From a virus: 42,860 bases of DNA. This document shows, one piece after another, positions 3,169-42,362 of the stretch. The stretch is taken from IMG/VR virus record IMGVR_UViG_3300045996_000661, positions 1-42,860 of that record. The stretch is one strand, 5' to 3'. Within the stretch, counting starts at the first letter, position 1. Each line of letters starts with the position of its first letter. Position numbers and translations under genes: made by a program. The notes below the pieces were generated by a model that worked only from the letters and a program-made list of their open reading frames with translations, was not told the DNA's origin and did no database searches.

Positions 3169-5406
3169 TTAAAAAGGTAAATCTTCTTTATTATCTTCTT
3201 CTTTTATCTTGTCGGCTCCTGATGTATTATTAAAGGCTGCCGCTTGGTCTCTGTTAGTTCTTATTACACACCACTTCTTTGGTGTGGCTCCTCCTACTCG
3301 TGTAGTCTTTCTATCAAACTTTAATCTTTCCATTTCTCTTCCAATTATACTAAGGTTCAATCTCTGATGTGTCAAGATTTCAATTTCGACTAGTATCTCT
3401 GTTGAACTCAATCTTACATCGTCCCCTGGCTTGAAGTACTTATCAATCAATTCTCTTTCCTTTACAACCTGCTCGTACTTAACAGAATCGGTATTCAGAT
3501 AAGCTACGTCCTTTGCTCCTATTCGCCAGTCAAACCCTTCCTTGTATAATCGGAAGGCTTCCATAAAGAGGTCTCTTTTATCTATCGAATTATAAAGCTC
3601 TTTATCTATATCAATTACTTCAATCGGTATTATCCTCCTGTTTCCAGTAGGGTCTGAAAGTATTTCATTGTAATTAGAAGTTCCACACAGAACAGCTAAT
3701 CTTAATATCTTCTCGTTGTGGTCGCCATAAGGTCTGCGTAAACTGAAATATTGTTTAGATGTGATATTCTTGAGTTTCAAAGCATCTTGTTTGCTTTTAC
3801 CTCCAAGCTCATCATCCATTATTATCAAGTTCTCTGTCATTAGTAGTTCATCATCCTTCTCCTTATCCAACTTCGACTCGGCATAGTACGTACTTAATTC
3901 TTTGGGGAGTAACCTCCTGAAGAACTCGGTTTTACCTGTATTCTGAGAACCCAACAAACATAACAGTAGTGGCGAGTGAACCTTGTGAGCTGCCGACACT
4001 ACAGAAACGAGCCACTTCCGCAAAAAGAATAGTGTAAACGCTGGTTTCTCGTTTTTTATACAGGATGCAAGTAGGTCTATCAAAGGAGAGTTTGGGTCTG
4101 GCTGGTCATTCAGTGGGATGGCTGGTAGCATTACTGGTATTCCATCTGAACCAAAGAACTTAAAGAACGGATTGTAAGTCTCTATGAAGTCAGACTTTAG
4201 TAATCTTATCATTAAGTTATAGTCCAGTTTTGGTATCAACTTCTTTGCTGCGATGAATATCGAGTTAAGGTCGCTCGGAGATAGCTGATGTTCGTTTTGC
4301 TCTAAGTAACCAGTAACCTCATTCATCTTCAGACTGTAATTATTAGAAATGAATAATTCCAGTTGATATAATATAGACTCCTCGTCTGTACTAAACTCGT
4401 TATCATCTTGTTCCTCAAATATCTTATCTACAACCGTATCAGCATTTGTAATATTACTGAACTTCTTTAAGTTCTCTACGATTTGCTCTTTCTTTAATCC
4501 AGCCTTCTTTCCGTTCTTTGTTGTCCTTACGATAGTCCTGGTCTGTTCAGATACAATGCTAATATTATGTATCTTTGCAAGGTAGTAGAATGTAGATATA
4601 TTCACCTTCGTAGTACCACGAGCCTTCATACAAGCATCATACTGCTTATCTGTTGTAACAGCTCTGTACTTCGGAGAGAACCTACTAACATCATGGAAGT
4701 AACCTCTACCAGCTTCACCGAATTGCTCGCATATAGCAAATCCAACCTTTAGCCAGTCTTGGTACTCTTCGCAAATGTTAACACATCTTCCAGTTATCTG
4801 CTTCATTATCTTCTCGAAGTCTCCTGCCGTATGAACAAAGTCTGTCATACGCTTGATAGGAGTCTCCTTCGGATACCTCTTGAAAGTAGATACCTTGTTC
4901 CAATCCATATTTATATATAGATATGGGTCAAAGCTAACTATGTACGGCTTACTTACATTTACTCCGTTAGGGTCTGCTATAAGACCGTACTGCTCGTAAA
5001 GGTATGTAGATATTCCACGGAAAGCCTCTTGATGCTTCTTCGGGTCAATCTTGAAGAGTACTCTTAGTCCATCACCAGATGTACTCATGAATACAGATAG
5101 AACATACTTGTCATTTTCCAGAACGCGTTTCACAGCTGGCAAGTCTTGAACGTGGTCAAGGTCAATAGCGATAATTCCACTATGACTTACCAGTCCATTG
5201 TCAGCTCTATAGGTGAACTCTCCAGACAGAGTAGTGGTCGGCATTGTTTTCTTAAACGCCTTCCTCTCGTCTCCCTTGAGTAATCTGCATTTTGTAGTAA
5301 TATCCTCCCAGAAGCCGTCTCTGGTATGCTCAAGATATTCCTGTAGTTCCATGTTGAGAGGGTTCTGCACATTCTCAACATTCTTGAAAATACTAACTTT
5401 TGGCAT
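3169..5406 (-). CDS. Primase-helicase with BT4734-like N-domain and VirE-type ATPase
   Basis: A 745-residue replication protein. Residues about 1-170 match the BT4734-like/VirE N-terminal domain: AIDLDH near 80 resembles the hhhDhD metal motif of archaeo-eukaryotic-type primases, and STSGDGLRVLF near 108 resembles their second motif. A helical linker (about 195-290, PriCT-like) follows. Next comes a VirE-type P-loop ATPase with Walker A GSQNTGKT near 485-492, Walker B NLIIMDDE near 530 and NRRIIPIEV near 610. It would prime and unwind DNA at the phage fork. The C-terminus is acidic and ends EDLPF, like the tip of bacterial SSB proteins. It lies 14 bp after the SF2 helicase. Confidence 0.88.
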   Translation of the reverse strand: MPKVSIFKNVENVQNPLNMELQEYLEHTRDGFWEDITTKCRLLKGDERKAFKKTMPTTTLSGEFTYRADNGLVSHSGIIAIDLDHVQDLPAVKRVLENDKYVLSVFMSTSGDGLRVLFKIDPKKHQEAFRGISTYLYEQYGLIADPNGVNVSKPYIVSFDPYLYINMDWNKVSTFKRYPKETPIKRMTDFVHTAGDFEKIMKQITGRCVNICEEYQDWLKVGFAICEQFGEAGRGYFHDVSRFSPKYRAVTTDKQYDACMKARGTTKVNISTFYYLAKIHNISIVSEQTRTIVRTTKNGKKAGLKKEQIVENLKKFSNITNADTVVDKIFEEQDDNEFSTDEESILYQLELFISNNYSLKMNEVTGYLEQNEHQLSPSDLNSIFIAAKKLIPKLDYNLMIRLLKSDFIETYNPFFKFFGSDGIPVMLPAIPLNDQPDPNSPLIDLLASCIKNEKPAFTLFFLRKWLVSVVSAAHKVHSPLLLCLLGSQNTGKTEFFRRLLPKELSTYYAESKLDKEKDDELLMTENLIIMDDELGGKSKQDALKLKNITSKQYFSLRRPYGDHNEKILRLAVLCGTSNYNEILSDPTGNRRIIPIEVIDIDKELYNSIDKRDLFMEAFRLYKEGFDWRIGAKDVAYLNTDSVKYEQVVKERELIDKYFKPGDDVRLSSTEILVEIEILTHQRLNLSIIGREMERLKFDRKTTRVGGATPKKWCVIRTNRDQAAAFNNTSGADKIKEEDNKEDLPF

Positions 5407-7043: not shown

Positions 7044-7091
7044 ATAGTTTGTGAGATTTTTTGTGTATATATATATGCGCTAATAATGCCT

Positions 7092-7119
7092 GTGAAACGT
7101 ATTTTTAACCGTGTTTCAC
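7092..7119. promoter_or_regulatory. Operator-like inverted repeat GTGAAAC-N14-GTTTCAC (site A)
   Basis: Perfect 7-bp arms are separated by 14 bp in the 146-bp gap upstream of the SF2 helicase. A second site with the same arms and the same 14-bp spacing lies at 18933-18960, and the match extends on both sides (GTGAAACGT on the left, GTTTCACGnGGTT on the right). Two distant intergenic copies suggest binding by a dimeric regulator. The minus-strand TACGTTTC inside the site could also act as a -7 element. Confidence 0.6.
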
Positions 7120-7189
7120 GGGGTTAAATGATTGATTAATACCCACGTACAACAACGCGAAAAAACACGTTAAAACGTTCCAAAATTGA

Positions 7190-7519
7190 CTACATCTTTC
7201 CTATGTAGTTGAAGATACACTTTCCTTGTAATCGAAAAGCTTTCATTTCTTCATTCATTCCATTACTGATATATTTGCCTGTAAGCCAGAGCTCGTCAAA
7301 TATACCTGTCTCAATCATAGCGATACAGTTCTCTATTCCGCGTTTTCTCTGGAGCGCATCTGAATCATCCATAGCAACGCAGTCTCCGAAATACGGAGCA
7401 ACTGGAATTACATCTTCGTTGGTAAGATTTATCTCTTTTAATATGCGAGCTAAATCTTCCAGATTTTCTTTTACGGCTCCTCCAATGGGATGAGCGATGT
7501 AAACTATTCTTTTAACCAT
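7190..7519 (-). CDS. DUF4406 / nucleoside deoxyribosyltransferase-like protein
   Basis: The product begins KRIVYIAHPIGG, has a Rossmann-like pattern (VIPVAPYFGDC, then RKRGIENCIAMIETGIFDELWLTG, then ISNGMNEEMKAF) and ends after a GKCIFNY strand. This is the layout of the DUF4406 group related to nucleoside 2-deoxyribosyltransferases, which act on nucleotides; substrate unknown. I chose the ATG at 7519: the longer frame would extend through the neighbouring tRNA-like element. 109 residues fits the family. Confidence 0.75.
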   Translation of the reverse strand: MVKRIVYIAHPIGGAVKENLEDLARILKEINLTNEDVIPVAPYFGDCVAMDDSDALQRKRGIENCIAMIETGIFDELWLTGKYISNGMNEEMKAFRLQGKCIFNYIGKM

Positions 7520-7522
7520 AGC

Positions 7523-7640
7523 TCCCTGAGTGGGACTCGAACCCATCTGACACGCAGAAGTTGCAATCTCCTGTTTGTCGAGACATACTGACTCTGGTAC
7601 CAGCTTCAATATGAATGCTTACCGCTAAGCTAATCAAGGA
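7523..7640 (-). tRNA. tRNA-like element 1 (118 nt, enlarged)
   Basis: Read on the minus strand, the 5' TCCTTGA pairs with 3' TCAGGGA as a 7-bp acceptor stem (one G-U). A D-arm GCTT-AGCGGT-AAGC and a T-arm with loop TTCGAGT are present. AGGAG-ATTGCAA-CTTCT could be an anticodon arm with anticodon TGC, nominally Ala. About 44 extra nucleotides separate the D-arm from that arm and form their own hairpin (8 bp, AG/AG internal loop, then CTGG/CCAG). At 118 nt it is far too long for an ordinary tRNA, so it may be an inserted, recombined or decoy tRNA. It ends 3 bp before the DUF4406 gene start. Confidence 0.5.
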
Positions 7641-7703
7641 GGACACACCACAACTGTACAAAGTCTTTAAACGACCATTCACTACTCTTTTCCACATCTC
7701 TTG

Positions 7704-7727
7704 GTGTATAGCGTCGAAGCTATATCT
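7704..7727 (-). other. CCA-tailed minihelix-like hairpin
   Basis: On the minus strand TATAGC and GCTATA form a 6-bp stem closed by TTCGAC, a T-loop-like sequence, followed two bases later by CCA. It looks like a T-arm/acceptor minihelix without the rest of a tRNA. It lies between two tRNA-like elements and may be a relic. Low certainty, because a 6-bp stem can arise by chance. Confidence 0.25.
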
Positions 7728-7742
7728 TTGTCTACAGACCTC

Positions 7743-7770
7743 GGTGAGCGAAGTGGAATTGAACCACTGG
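7743..7770 (-). pseudogene. tRNA 3'-half fragment
   Basis: Directly after the CCA of element 2, the minus strand carries a perfect T-arm, AGTGG-TTCAATT-CCACT, followed by TCGCTCACC, which looks like the 3' strand of an acceptor stem. I could not find a matching 5' strand (TGAGCGA) within a plausible distance, so this appears to be a 3' half without a 5' half, perhaps left by recombination between tRNA genes. Confidence 0.4.
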
Positions 7771-7878
7771 TGCTACGACAGGATTTGAACCTGTATCCTA
7801 ACTGGTGCTAACAACTGCGCTTCTCCAGTACGGGCTGCTTTACCCGAGGACTCTACCAATGTCCTCTCGAACGTAGCA
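7771..7878 (-). tRNA. tRNA-like element 2 (108 nt, enlarged)
   Basis: The minus strand gives a perfect acceptor stem TGCTACG/CGTAGCA, a perfect T-arm ACAGG-TTCAAAT-CCTGT abutting it, and an encoded CCA. The base before the 5' end is G and the base after the 3' strand is C, reminiscent of the tRNA-His G-1:C73 pair. A D-arm-like GGAC-ATTGGTAGA-GTCC is present. A possible anticodon arm AGTTG-TTAGCAC-CAGTT has two G-U pairs. About 31 extra nucleotides, including a GGG...CCC hairpin, separate the D-arm from it. The acceptor identity and any decoding function are uncertain. Confidence 0.5.
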
Positions 7879-7886
7879 CTTAGATT

Positions 7887-8201
7887 TTAAAACGGGAGGT
7901 CGTCAAGATGGGAACCCCCAAGCTTGCCGCTCTCAACTCCAGGCTTAACCTCTTCAGAGTTACCTGCTCCTTGGGATGCAAAGATTTTGCAGTTACCCAA
8001 GATAGGCCCCTTAGTAGATTTGTCCTTTTTGTAAATCTCGGTAGGTACATCTTGTACTATCATACCGTTGTTACCGTAACCATCTTGCTCATCATTCTGA
8101 AGAACAGTAAAGTTAAGGTAATCTCCTTTTTCACCAGCGAAAATCCACTCCTTAATTACTTCTCGGACGTTGATTTTACACTTGATAATTCTGTCTGCCA
8201 T
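7887..8201 (-). CDS. Possible separate SSB product from internal start
   Basis: The ATG at 8201 opens the SSB half in the same frame as the KTSC-SSB gene. The bases before it (an A-run, then TCAACACAAAAG) resemble the leaders before other starts in this phage, such as CACAAAAAATCTCACAA. The 104-residue product would be a normal-size compact SSB with the DDLPF tip. Whether both forms exist cannot be decided from sequence. Confidence 0.4.
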   Translation of the reverse strand: MADRIIKCKINVREVIKEWIFAGEKGDYLNFTVLQNDEQDGYGNNGMIVQDVPTEIYKKDKSTKGPILGNCKIFASQGAGNSEEVKPGVESGKLGGSHLDDLPF

Positions 8202-8432
8202 CTTTTGTGTTGATTTTTTTAGTGAGAAATTTGGTTTTATCATGTGTAGATAGAATCTACCAAATGAACGTGCTATTGTAAACTCTTCAAAGTACGAAGG
8301 AGGAACTCTCTCGTACGTCAACTTGTCAACAAAGTATTTTCTAAAATGTATCGTAAGCTCAAGTGTCTTCTCGTCATATTCTATTTCAGATATGAGAGAA
8401 GAGTCAGTTTCTTGTAGCTCCATGTGAAACAT
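7887..8432 (-). CDS. KTSC domain fused to single-stranded-DNA-binding protein
   Basis: Residues about 17-70 (LTIHFRKYF, then YERVPPSYFEEFTIARSFGRFYLHMI) match the small KTSC domain. Residues 78-181 look like a phage SSB: ADRIIKCKINVREVIKEW, a basic/aromatic middle, a glycine-rich linker, and the acidic tip DDLPF that recruits replication partners. The two parts are in one frame with no stop. The join is a translated A-rich stretch resembling a Bacteroidota leader, followed by ATG (residue 78). So a separate SSB of 104 residues may also be made. The fused protein could start at M1 or at M4. Neighbouring exonuclease and annealing-protein genes fit a role in replication and recombination. Confidence 0.75.
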   Translation of the reverse strand: MFHMELQETDSSLISEIEYDEKTLELTIHFRKYFVDKLTYERVPPSYFEEFTIARSFGRFYLHMIKPNFSLKKSTQKMADRIIKCKINVREVIKEWIFAGEKGDYLNFTVLQNDEQDGYGNNGMIVQDVPTEIYKKDKSTKGPILGNCKIFASQGAGNSEEVKPGVESGKLGGSHLDDLPF

Positions 8433-8466
8433 AAAGATAACGATTTTTTTGTTAATAAAATGTTAA
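8426..8466 (-). promoter_or_regulatory. Promoter of the KTSC-SSB gene, near-leaderless
   Basis: The minus strand has TATGTTTC (8433-8426) as a -7 element, with TTAAC boxes (plus-strand GTTAA) starting at 8451 and 8462, again 11 bp apart. The ATG of codon 4 follows the -7 element by only two bases, so the transcript would have almost no leader, or translation begins at an in-frame downstream codon. Confidence 0.45.
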
Positions 8467-8495
8467 GTGGAAAACTTGTGGAAAACTATATTTGC

Positions 8496-8563
8496 TGCGT
8501 AGGCAGGAGTCGAACCTGCACCTGTAACTATCCCTAGCCAGTGCGCCTTTACACTACTACGCA
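8496..8563 (-). tRNA. tRNA-like element 3 (68 nt, six-base anticodon loop)
   Basis: The minus strand folds as a compact cloverleaf: acceptor TGCGTAG/CTACGCA (perfect), D-arm GTGT-AAAGGC-GCAC, anticodon stem TGGCT/AGTTA with two G-U pairs, five-base variable region CAGGT, and T-arm GCAGG-TTCGACT-CCTGC (perfect). The anticodon loop is only six bases (AGGGAT) and lacks the usual U33; base 26 is missing. No anticodon can be assigned in the normal way. CCA is not encoded. It may be a degenerate tRNA or a mimic. Confidence 0.55.
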
Positions 8564-8582: not shown

Positions 8583-8834
8583 CTATGCCTCTTCCTCCTC
8601 TTCTTCATCATCTTCTTCCTCAACTTCGGCTTCCTCTTCTTGGAGGGTAACCAGGTAGATAGAGCCAATCTTCAGCGATGCAAGCTCTTCCTCGTTTGTT
8701 ACAACGATTTGAGTCTGACCGTAGGCTGGTCTACCGGAAGTGGCGATAGTATTCTTTTCGTGAGGAGCATTCTCCGCAACGAAATTAGCGACATTTTTGC
8801 TAATCGCTGACAGCTTCATTCGTACTGATAGCAT
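8583..8834 (-). CDS. Hypothetical protein with polyglutamate tail, 83 residues
   Basis: No family recognised. The N-terminal 60 residues look like a small alpha/beta domain; the last 17 are almost all glutamate and aspartate (EEEDDEEEEEEA). Very acidic tails on small phage proteins can mimic DNA or bind basic host proteins; there is no direct sign of which. ATG at 8834; an in-frame ATG five codons later (MKLSAISK) is an alternative start. Confidence 0.65.
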   Translation of the reverse strand: MLSVRMKLSAISKNVANFVAENAPHEKNTIATSGRPAYGQTQIVVTNEEELASLKIGSIYLVTLQEEEAEVEEEDDEEEEEEA

Positions 8835-19036: not shown

Positions 19037-22000
19037 CTATTCGTTGTCAACATTTATCGTAATTAGCGAACCAGTAGGCAAGCCGAATGCAGTAGCATCA
19101 ACTACCAATATAACACCCTCCAGAATCTCGTTAGGGCCACCAGCAAATACCTTTCCTTTGTTATTAGTTCTCAACGTAAGGTTAACATTGTAGTAGTATA
19201 ATGGATGCCCATCTACATCATCCGAAGGCTCTATCTTCTCATCTTGGTCAAGCGCATAACCTACTCCTTCTATAAACAAGTCTTCGTTTGTAAGCGCATT
19301 TGCAATCTTGAGATACAGATAGTCTGGCAATCCATAAGCTGTACCGAACCTGATAACTCTCTTTCTTGATACATTACCATACAGAAGCAATCCATCGCCA
19401 TCTTCTTCTTTAGCAACATTTGTAACAACATCAGGCTGCAACTTTTTGACAAGTCCTTCAGTTCTAATAATTGTTTTAAATCCTGTGGAGAAGAACACTC
19501 CAGGAAGATTTACTGTATGGTTTGACTCTATCAGAATAGTATCGTACCACTTCTCTCTAACCTCAACTCTCTCTGAAATACAAACAGGAGTTGCTCCAAC
19601 ATGGATAACAAAGAAAATCTGCTTGTCGGCATAATCTGCAAAGTCAATCTCTACTTCCTGCACAACATCTGGAGTTGGAACAGGAGCTGGAACTACAGGA
19701 GCGTAATTCAGAGTACCAATAAGGCTTCCATCAAAACAGTCATATACCTTAAGCGTAACGTCAGCTAAGCCATTGGTAATAATCTGGTCTCTTATAACTT
19801 CCGTCTCTTGGAACTTCTGTATATAAGGAGGATTGTTAAGCCATGCCTCATTCCTGTTCTCAAACCAGTCGTCATAGATTGTCTTATTATTATACTGCGG
19901 TAATGCTTGATAATTATAAGTAACCATATGCAACGAGTTGTAGTCGCTGTGGTATAGTGCGTTTTGCATTAGATTTACTGTTATTCCTGTTTTATAAAGA
20001 TTAAGCAAAGTCATATACTGGTTCGTTGGAGCGAGAAGTAACTTCCACTCCTGAACGCTGTCATTTATACTATTCATCTTCATACTTCCAATAGGCAGGA
20101 AGAATATTTCAGAACCTCTAAACGTTGCTTTAAGGTATCCTCCGCTACTGAAATTATAAAGTGTCTGAGCAAACGAATGTCTTGCAGCGACCTTTATGTT
20201 GGCATATTCTAACAAACCAATAGGACTCCCCAAAGAAGAAATAGGCACATCATCCCTTTCTGCTATTACCTCAGTTCCAAGTACAGTTCTTAAATTTCCG
20301 TTCTTGTCTGCTGTTTGGAAATAAATCTTCTCGTTTCTCTGCTGGTTCATTATCATGGACAGCTTAGACTTATGAGCCAACAACATTCTCTTTGGGGAGT
20401 ATTCAGTATTGAAAACTGTATTATCTGTTACTCCTGTAATAGAGCTGTATGCTGGTCTGCTTAACCTGTAACCTGTTACATTTATTCCTACAGTATGGTT
20501 TATTAAAGATGTTGATACTACACTCAATCCATTTCTTATAGGTGCAAGTACTGTTGATACACCACTTACTGGGTCTGGATATGATATTGGAGATACTTGT
20601 AAACTCCAGTTTCCGTTCGCGTCAGCTGTTGCTGTACCAAGCATTGCATAAGGGATATAATTAAGCCATACGGTAACTACAGTTCCTGGGATTGCAACTC
20701 CTTCTATCAACGGAAGGTTATCTACTAAAATAAATCCATCCAACTCAGAACCTATGTAGGTTATCAACGGAAACGCTACGCTCGAGTCAACTGTAAATGT
20801 AGCTGTATCTGCACCTGCGTTTACGCTCAATGTATGAGAACCATTAGTAAACGGAGTAACAACTTTATAACTCCATCTGCAAGAATTATCTGTAACTGCA
20901 GTATTTATAAGAACTCCATCTAATCTTATTTGAACAAGAGTTCCTGGAGCAGCAACGCCTTTTATTAGAGGCTTGTTGTTGTACAGGCTATCTCCTTGCT
21001 GTGGATATGTTATAATAGTTTCGGCTGCTACAGTTGTATCTATAATAACAGAAATAGTATCCAATGCTCCTGCCATAGTTGTATATGTAGCAGTAATATC
21101 ATGCTGACCATCAAAGACTCCTGGGTCATAAGATGATAATGAAGCAATTATCTGGTAAGTCCAATCTCCGTTTACGTCAGATACTGTACTTCCATCAAGT
21201 ACTCCGTCAACATAGATATTGACCGTTAGACCTGGAGGACAAACTCCTTTAAGGAACGGCTTGTCATTATTGATAACGTCTCCAGATAAAGGATGCTTGA
21301 TGTACGGTGCTAAAGGAGCATTGTTTACGTTTATATTCTCAAACGTCTGAACGTCCTCTACAGCTGTTCCAATCTGGTCTGTTATCCTCATCACATATAC
21401 ACTCTTGTCTCCTGTGTTATCCTGTGTACTTAAACCACGATAATCAAGAATCATAAACTGTATATCATAGCATCCAAGTCTGTACTTGGAAACAATATCC
21501 ATCTTCTTTTTCGAGTTAAACACAGGAAGAGAAAATCCATTTGTTGAGTTAAACTCGAGTCTTCCGCTTGGATGCCTGTAATCCTGCTTTGGTGAACCAA
21601 CGATTATCTCGTTTATGGAAAACTCTTTTGCAGGAATAAGCTGTACGTCTATTGCGTCACCCAGGTCTATGATTTCGTTATCGTCATTATAGACTTCGTC
21701 TGCTTGCTCTACGAATAATTCTCCGTTAGCAGAACGTATTGCAAGGAAATATATAGAGTCAAAAGTCTTAAACCAATCAGCAAATGATGTATATATCCTT
21801 GCATTTTCTATTCCACGTATAGCATCTCCGCTTGTGCAAACATCATACTTGTTAGTTGTAAAGAACTCGCTATCAATAGTATAACGACCTCTTGTAGCTT
21901 GAAACACTATTGCCTTCAATAGGTCAAGAGACCTTAGTCCGTACACGATAACAGGCTCTGCAGTAGTCTCTGTCTTTACATATATGTTAGTTACAATAGG

Positions 22001-41653: not shown

Positions 41654-41779
41654 TTAATTATATAGTATTTTAAATATATCCATATACGAGTACTCCTCCG
41701 CTGTGTCTAAAGGTTCTGCCTTTATAAACCTATGCGGTAGTGAGCAAAGATACATCATTGCCAAGTATTCGTCTAATCT
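41654..41779 (-). pseudogene. +1-shifted C-terminal extension of the VirE-type ATPase
   Basis: The zero frame of the ATPase stops at TAG (41780-41778), but the +1 frame continues for 41 more codons (RLDEYLAMMYLCSLPHRFIK and on to DIFKILYN) and ends 5 bp before the next start. The text joins smoothly (ELFNKYKPDAF, then RLDEYLAMM), and no other gene fills this space. At the junction the codons are TTT TAG in a TTTT run, where tRNA-Phe can slip +1 and re-pair perfectly. It is either a programmed +1 frameshift or a one-base insertion. Confidence 0.55.
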
Positions 41780-42362
41780 AAAAGGCATCTGGTTTGTATT
41801 TATTAAATAGTTCAACCCATAATTGTCTCTTATCAACATTGTTGAAGACGGCATGGGCTACAGCAAGTATTTTAAGAACGATTTGACGCTGAGACTTAAA
41901 AACCCAAGTATCGTTAGTGGTAACAATAAATGACGAGAGCCTCTTTGTTGCTACTGGCCTGTCAGTATATGGCAGCCTTACTTCAAAGCAATCACTTGCA
42001 GCCAATGCCGAAAGAACTTTAAAATCATTCTTGGTATTGACTTCGTAATTGATTATAGGAATATCGTACAAAGCTCGTTTATCAAGAGATGGACTAAAGA
42101 AATCCATAAACCATCCGCTCCAAGGAGCCAGCTCAGACACCCAAACGCTTTTGCCGATTCCTTGTGGTCCTTCTAAGACAAGGAACTTATGGTTTGGTCG
42201 GTAGTAAAAAGAATTAACGACTCCTTCAAGCCATTCGTCTAGGACGTTAATATCCTGACCATCCTGAAGTATTAAACTCCTCTTAAGGAGGTCAATATTG
42301 CCAGTTGTTTCTTTTATTGGATGAGCGTACAGCTCATTCAATAGAATGTCTCTTTGTTCCAT
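41778..42362 (-). CDS. VirE/VapE-type P-loop ATPase
   Basis: The 194-residue zero-frame product has Walker A GPQGIGKS (near 63-70), a strand followed by IPIINYEV where Walker B is expected (acidic residue shifted), and SSFIVTTND (near 145), the sensor-type strand of VirE helicase domains. It lacks the primase domain of the 745-residue protein and is shorter than typical VirE ATPases; the +1-shifted tail of 41 residues would restore a length of 235. Role: probably helicase loading or remodelling near the origin-like region. Start ATG at 42362. Confidence 0.72.
   Translation of the reverse strand: MEQRDILLNELYAHPIKETTGNIDLLKRSLILQDGQDINVLDEWLEGVVNSFYYRPNHKFLVLEGPQGIGKSVWVSELAPWSGWFMDFFSPSLDKRALYDIPIINYEVNTKNDFKVLSALAASDCFEVRLPYTDRPVATKRLSSFIVTTNDTWVFKSQRQIVLKILAVAHAVFNNVDKRQLWVELFNKYKPDAF
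42161..42287. repeat. Terminal direct repeat, right copy
   Basis: Identical to bases 1-127; lies inside the VirE-type gene and covers its Walker A region. Homology continues beyond it to the right edge (42288-42860 against 128-700), with strong similarity in the 98-residue gene and clear divergence in the next one. Confidence 0.9.

Follow-up and report, generated by a model that had tools for sequence, protein, structure and literature searches.

Several systems are known in which the shape of tRNA serves outside ordinary decoding. Viral examples are the TMERs of murine gammaherpesvirus 68 and the tRNA-like 3′ ends of plant RNA viruses. In bacteria, the Y RNA YrlA contains a tRNA-like domain without a normal anticodon arm, its ends forming a Ro-binding stem, and transfer-messenger RNA (tmRNA) retains the acceptor stem and T-arm with a large insert in place of the anticodon. 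Mitochondrial tRNAs punctuate transcripts between co-directional genes, and in laboratory “tRNA scaffold” RNAs, a foreign RNA is placed at the position of the anticodon arm between flanking tRNA ends that provide processing and stability. The tRNA genes of phages are generally attributed to codon usage or to the replacement of tRNAs destroyed by host defences; RNAs that have tRNA ends and no anticodon fit neither explanation. Here, three such elements (E1, E2, and E3) are described on the minus strand of an IMG/VR virus record of 42,860 bases (IMGVR_UViG_3300045996_000661; “the window” denotes this whole stretch). E1–E3 are non-decoding tRNA-like RNAs with selection acting on their ends, and they are part of a large and apparently undescribed phage group of such RNAs, suggesting that the tRNA shape is retained in phages for tasks outside decoding.

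The elements share with ordinary phage tRNAs the acceptor stem, the T-arm, usually a D-arm with GG, and sometimes the same arrays (loci L163 and L416 of our collection); however, they have no usable anticodon arm, their length ranges from 43 to 190 nt, and in one branch constant ends enclose variable middles. Similar to mitochondrial punctuation, tRNA-shaped units stand between co-directional genes, in several cases with a start codon 0–2 nt from the 3′ end, but the mitochondrial units are working tRNAs, whereas the phage elements cannot decode and their cleavage is a prediction. In contrast to tmRNA, the phage elements have no recognised tag reading frame and no G3-U70 alanine determinant, and the ARAGORN tmRNA search of the window was empty. 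The TMERs and plant viral 3′ ends belong to other viruses; the phage elements have bacterial hosts and no linked microRNA or genome end. The anticodon arm is abnormal in YrlA and in the phage elements alike, but the ends of the latter are a tRNA acceptor stem; no Rfam match to YrlA or other Y RNA was obtained for the window elements, and no search for Ro was made. Laboratory scaffolds are engineered, whereas the phage elements are natural and multi-copy. No description of phage tRNA-like RNAs without an anticodon was found in the literature, which is weak evidence of novelty since preprints and most subscription papers were outside the scope of the search.

Paired ends and altered middles in E1–E3 and their relatives

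E1–E3 lie in an early replication operon, in the gaps between genes that run in the same direction. Each of them contains the acceptor/T-arm minihelix, i.e., a canonical acceptor stem of at least 7 bp and a T-arm with a loop fitting TTCRANY, and none contains a five-pair anticodon arm that has a loop of seven bases and U33 in its usual position. In E1, the acceptor (8563-8557/8502-8496, TGCGTAG/CTACGCA) forms 7/7 Watson–Crick pairs and the T-arm (8519-8503, GCAGG-TTCGACT-CCTGC) 5/5 pairs; a D-arm (8554-8541, GTGT-AAAGGC-GCAC) is present, and the arm at the anticodon position (8539-8526, GGCT-AGGGAT-AGTT) has a loop of six bases without U33. E2 has an 8-bp acceptor (7879-7872/7777-7770, GTGCTACG/CGTAGCAC), a T-arm with 5/5 pairs (7794-7778, ACAGG-TTCAAAT-CCTGT), a D-arm with a 6-bp stem (GAGGAC/GTCCTC), and an additional hairpin (CGGG..CCCG), and a credible 7-nt anticodon loop is absent. 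The acceptor of E3 (7640-7634/7529-7523, TCCTTGA/TCAGGGA) pairs 7/7 including one G-U, its T-arm (7546-7530, ATGGG-TTCGAGT-CCCAC) pairs 4/5, and its D-arm (7630-7617, GCTT-AGCGGT-AAGC) is followed by an insert of 43 nt containing a neat 8-bp hairpin (7613-7584), which displaces a long anticodon-like arm (7573-7555, CAGGAG-ATTGCAA-CTTCTG). A preliminary description of the window had reported three minus-strand elements with perfect or near-perfect acceptors and T-arms and with abnormal middles. The ends are as it described them, and so are the middles of E1 and E3; the number of extra bases that it gave for E2 varies with the reading because it is ambiguous which part is to be taken as the anticodon arm.

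The folding z-scores of the whole elements are -0.5 for E1, -2.2 for E2, and -2.8 for E3. A scan for a T-arm joined to a 7-bp acceptor in 1.97 Mb of sequence (window and relatives) gave 22 matches vs. 2 in one Markov-1 shuffle, and the three strong matches of the window all lie inside 1.05 kb. The preliminary description left room for standard tools to fold the elements as ordinary or intron-bearing tRNAs; ARAGORN names E1 alone, as “tRNA-???”, and its intron mode returned no intron-bearing tRNA in the window. An Rfam scan of the whole window at gathering cut-offs gave no match. A focused scan with the Rfam tRNA model missed E2 and E3 and scored E1 at 36.1 bits, the gathering cut-off being 29; apart from tRNA, no family of Rfam 15 reached its gathering cut-off with E1–E3.

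Near and distant DNA searches of INPHARED with the window region gave no match and the DUF7768 protein encoded downstream of E3 found no close relatives as a query; relatives were collected via the helicase and the single-stranded DNA-binding-like protein (SSB) of the same operon. The site after the SSB gene carries tRNA-like elements in the window, L003, L013, L019, and L020 (a tandem pair). At the same site, L017 and L018 have a reduced form, an acceptor/T-arm minihelix whose T-loop is degenerate and whose acceptor (TCCCRCT/AGYGGGG) shows a compensated pair, and L014–L016 have plain 7- and 11-bp hairpins instead. Before the DUF7768 gene, i.e., at the site of E3, L019 and L259 have a 43-nt form that consists of acceptor and T-arm only (in L019, AGCGGTG-12 nt-TCTGGTTCGAGTCCGGA-CACCGCT, the ATG coming 1 nt beyond the stem). 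An element of L006 (23-97) has the acceptor and flanks of E1 and an unrelated middle; the two also differ by a compensated pair in terminal position of the T-stem. In 15 elements from wider helicase and SSB relatives, 14 of the acceptors are different in sequence; 13 acceptors pair 7/7 and two 6/7, and the T-stems keep 4–5 of 5 pairs. The stems have thus not decayed at random in the relatives, and the selection on the acceptor/T half that had been suggested for the window elements is borne out by acceptors that change and still pair, by the 43-nt minimal form, and by the larger families below, which keep their ends nearly letter for letter as the middles turn over. In two phages (L155, 8418-8552, and L243), elements of the same length, 135 nt, have a D-arm resembling that of tRNA-Leu and inserts that are similar in part (AGAGT..ATCG..GGGTG).

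Two large families and their extent in named phages

An odd D-loop hairpin was first met in three relatives, and a pattern scan of IMG/VR with GCGTAANCNNNAATGAATAYCG yielded 55 contigs, nearly all clearly tRNA-like. The members of this family consist of an acceptor, a D-stem closing round NCGR-NAATGAATA-YCGN, a hairpin of variable length without a conserved anticodon, a short linker, the T-arm, and the acceptor. When the proposed structure is laid over 21 distinct members, 98.7% of cells are paired and both partners have changed in 19 of 26 pairs; covariation scores 0.774 vs. 0.222 for shuffles (0/500), with slid controls at 0.08–0.14. A relaxed-loop scan showed the NAATGAATA loop to be identical in 10 of 11 cases apart from the first base, the remaining one being NAATAAATA (a TGA to TAA change), and the idea that the loop is an anticodon was rejected because it is fixed. 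In Rfam, the members match tRNA weakly (28–34 bits) and have no family of their own. The model built on the family in this analysis (R1) gives 55–98 bits for members and 31 bits for E1; the hairpin itself is absent from E1–E3. When the pattern was applied to genome contigs, 4 of 16 matches were real (L219, L223, L226, and L227) and the remainder were due to chance. In L204 (545-720), an element of this family adjoins a UAA-reading tRNA (tRNA-Stop in ARAGORN), so this phage is possibly recoded.

The second family is defined by the ends AGTCAGG...ACAGGTTCGAATCCTGT-CCTGACT, not found in E1–E3, whose acceptors differ; it too has no family in Rfam. In a 3′-end scan with six degenerate acceptor positions, 99 of 105 elements among the matches listed had CCTGACT, letter for letter, as the 3′ acceptor strand, with AGTCAGG or a near match as its partner, and enclosed middles of about 20–130 nt, mostly unrelated; the T-arm core and C74 are not evidence here because the scan pattern fixes them. 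Over all loci examined, a strict anticodon arm occurs in 1 of 191 distinct AGTCAGG elements, which is the chance rate (1.0% in shuffled AGTCAGG middles), vs. 156 of 206 other tRNA-sized elements. This strict-arm comparison was used; a looser count of 304 “non-decoding” elements was not taken as evidence. A single contig carries up to 12 AGTCAGG copies, often beside ordinary tRNAs. In L416, a full ordinary tRNA set alternates with at least 12 such RNAs with no convincing genes between them, and in L415 the RNAs alternate with short open reading frames (ORFs). Related phages keep a middle with compensated stems (L289/L333/L343; L267/L327), and a few middles also recur with different acceptors (L431 vs. 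L293/L326/L353; L276/L301/L354). The elements of L276, L301, and L354 are ~150 nt long and join three different acceptors to a strongly conserved middle (CACTCGTC..GTGGGCGCTGAA, GGGTTGACCACAAAGCCGGC).

Some general properties were considered for this family and rejected. The middles do not fold more strongly than shuffles (mean z 0.06), they are not supported as antisense guides to the phage’s own genes, since matches to the own contig are in no excess over shuffles, and the ends are not copied from the phages’ own tRNA-Leu genes, whose acceptors differ and are mostly GCC or GCT. Six bacterial genomes were searched for the AGTCAGG-type 3′ end, and none gave a match.

Related elements are present in named phages. 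An unannotated 107-nt element near 19550-19656 lies just before NinG in Bacteroides phage BS-TP2, whose host is Bacteroides salyersiae BG8, an unannotated 79-nt element in the crAss-like phage cr4_1, and a 107-nt element in Caudoviricetes MW202828; Tenacibaculum phage pT24 has two “tRNA-Undet” genes with a long arm and a three-base loop. In pT24 (LC168164.1, 192032-192477; L432), the near-identical “tRNA-Undet” pair flanks a “tRNA-Pro” with an abnormal-looking anticodon arm. Such RNAs are hidden in annotation as “tRNA-Undet” or omitted from it, and tRNA gene finders and phage surveys miscount them. Since the carriers include phages that can be grown (BS-TP2 and pT24) or easily sampled (crAss-like), simple tests are feasible.

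Possible functions and rival explanations

All these RNAs have in common the features read by RNase P, 3′ tRNase, the CCA enzyme, and T-arm modifiers, and they have lost what the ribosome reads. The acceptor/T minihelix is known as a minimal substrate of RNase P. For E1–E3, the explanation ranked first, to which we give about an even chance, is that they are non-decoding RNAs serving mainly as RNase P/3′-tRNase cut sites between messages. The coaxial acceptor/T-arm half, usually with a D-arm, is under selection, and the part in the place of the anticodon is free to change and unable to decode. Host tRNA maturation enzymes would cut the long transcript at the elements, RNase P at the 5′ side and the 3′ tRNA endonuclease after N73; the SSB message would thereby receive a defined 3′ end, a DUF7768 message with a leader of ~2 nt would be released, and the freed RNAs may additionally act in trans. 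The transcription of the elements, their cleavage, and cleavage as the main effect in the operon are inferred. A role in cis, in which messages are cut or insulated, is favoured in the clade of the window because of the junction position, the reduced forms, the replacement by hairpins, and the start codons 0–2 nt downstream in several phages. The distance from N73 to the next ATG is 0,0,1,1,2,2,11.. for the abnormal elements (two bases between E3 and DUF7768 in the window) vs. a minimum of 5 for scorable ordinary phage tRNAs, with ORF starts set by a simple rule and checked by homology for DUF7768 only. The suggestion of processing signals in the message, already contained in the preliminary description, is plausible and is the one preferred here.

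Besides the limited check of ORF starts, several points weigh against this explanation. Many elements of large phages belong to tRNA arrays whose members are not separated by any convincing gene, as in L416, and punctuation is not the purpose of the whole class because such arrays offer no message to cut. The AGTCAGG ends are constant in sequence, beyond pairing, which RNase P alone would not demand. E1 lies 62 nt upstream of the SSB start and not at it, and, judged from sequence, the window elements are tied to both large families by architecture, not by sequence similarity. For the large-phage arrays, a role in trans is more natural because there is no message between the copies and the ends are constant in sequence. 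It may tentatively be proposed, with less confidence than the cleavage explanation, that phages, mainly of Bacteroidota and neighbouring groups, contain a large class of trans-acting natural tRNA scaffolds, in which the ends would give maturation, stability, and factor binding, the anticodon domain would be a variable or lineage-specific module, and the window elements would form the small, operon-embedded end. If so, the scaffold ends would bind tRNA-handling or tRNA-attacking factors, and one phage may carry a dozen of them.

The main rival for E1–E3, ranked second and possible but doubtful, is that the released RNAs are themselves the product and, as decoys or effectors unable to decode without an anticodon, occupy host or defence factors reading the acceptor/T half, such as toxins modifying the 3′ end of tRNA; the middles would then differ between copies to avoid recombination or to meet targets of their own. 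The constancy of the AGTCAGG ends, the number of copies beside complete ordinary tRNA sets with no convincing ORFs between, and the conserved middle modules in some subfamilies (the NAATGAATA hairpin and the middles shared by different acceptors) agree with it. The toxSAS FaRel2, a toxin of the antiphage type, is active on minihelices and recognises pairs 1, 2, 4, and 5 of the acceptor (PMC11559606), which makes acceptor-half decoys conceivable and nothing further. However, the AGTCAGG middles behave like shuffles in folding and lack antisense matches to their own contig. In the window clade, acceptor sequences vary from phage to phage and plain hairpins can take their place, a pattern more in line with a role in cis. 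Of the decoys considered in the preliminary description, those for anticodon nucleases are weakened because the part that such nucleases read is missing, and those addressed to the acceptor/T half keep the standing just given.

The same description had also considered decaying tRNAs, i.e., former phage tRNA genes now without an anticodon arm and in the course of being lost. Phages do gain and lose tRNA genes, E3 retains a 7-nt ATTGCAA loop, and the stretch between E2 and E3 contains a lone T-arm, but decay should affect stems and loops alike, whereas many independent elements have acceptors and T-stems that change in sequence without losing their pairing, and 190 of 191 AGTCAGG elements have no anticodon arm while their ends are kept; this covariation largely refutes decay and leaves it improbable. 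Working tRNAs with an intron or unusual fold, spliced or read in a new way, are very improbable. The plausible U33-containing loop of E3 and the tRNA-Leu-type D-arm and A73 of some elements would agree with them; against them stand the empty result of the ARAGORN intron mode in the window, minimal forms of 43–55 nt that are too short for an anticodon arm, and the NAATGAATA loop, invariant unlike an anticodon. To our knowledge, bacteria have no splicing endonuclease for such inserts. The least credible of the explanations, with a negligible chance of being right, is that the elements are remnants of integration sites, i.e., tRNA 3′ halves serving as attachment sites of a temperate phage. Fragments of tRNA remain after integration into tRNA genes (PMC9897764), and the window contains a lone T-arm; however, each element has the two strands of its acceptor in paired form, a genome carries several elements, and they lie inside an operon.

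Early operon and neighbouring features

The window encodes head, portal, terminase, BT4734-like primase, helicase, and SSB-like proteins. The best cultured matches of the helicase are in Flavobacterium and Cellulophaga phages, and the host is likely a member of Bacteroidota. The minus-strand early operon has the order exo - ORF - methyltransferase - ORF - ORF - [E1] - SSB - [E2, lone T-arm, E3] - DUF7768 - helicase - primase (Table 1).

Table 1. Positions of the tRNA-like elements and adjacent genes in the window.
Feature	Position	Strand	Remarks
E1, tRNA-like	8495..8563	-	Between the 83-aa ORF and the SSB gene; body 8563-8496, N73 (G73) at 8495
E2, tRNA-like	7770..7879	-	Directly after the SSB stop codon
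E3, tRNA-like	7522..7640	-	Ends 2 nt before the DUF7768 start codon; body 7640-7523, N73 (G73) at 7522
Lone T-arm	7745..7768	-	AGTGG-TTCAATT-CCACT (7768-7752), then TCGCTCA; no 5′ acceptor partner found
DUF7768 gene	7190..7519	-	Start MVKRIVYIAHP at 7519, in agreement with the L007 and L019 homologues
SSB gene	7887..8432	-	KTSC domain fused to SSB-like protein; acidic tail DDLPF
83-aa ORF	8583..8834	-	Upstream of E1

Between the lone T-arm and E3, a TATAGC-TTCGAC-GCTATA hairpin is followed by CACCA. Lone T-arm hairpins with a 6–7-bp stem and a T-loop, without an acceptor, were also observed in short inter-ORF gaps of other SSB-bearing phages (L048 at 567, L067 at 1208, L069 at 183, and L070 at 582), above a rough chance expectation. 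The KTSC fusion of the SSB gene and its acidic tip DDLPF are kept in the closest relatives. The gap before the helicase gene (7044-7189) contains GTGAAAC/GTTTCAC repeats (CCCGTGAAACACGG..CGTTTCAC); similar repeats are located before the helicase gene in L004 and in the SSB-helicase gap in L005, and they are possibly an origin or an operator. Two separate ORFs of the window match the VapE-like domain (PF05272), namely the long primase (3169-5406) and a 194-aa ORF (41778-42362) near the other end.
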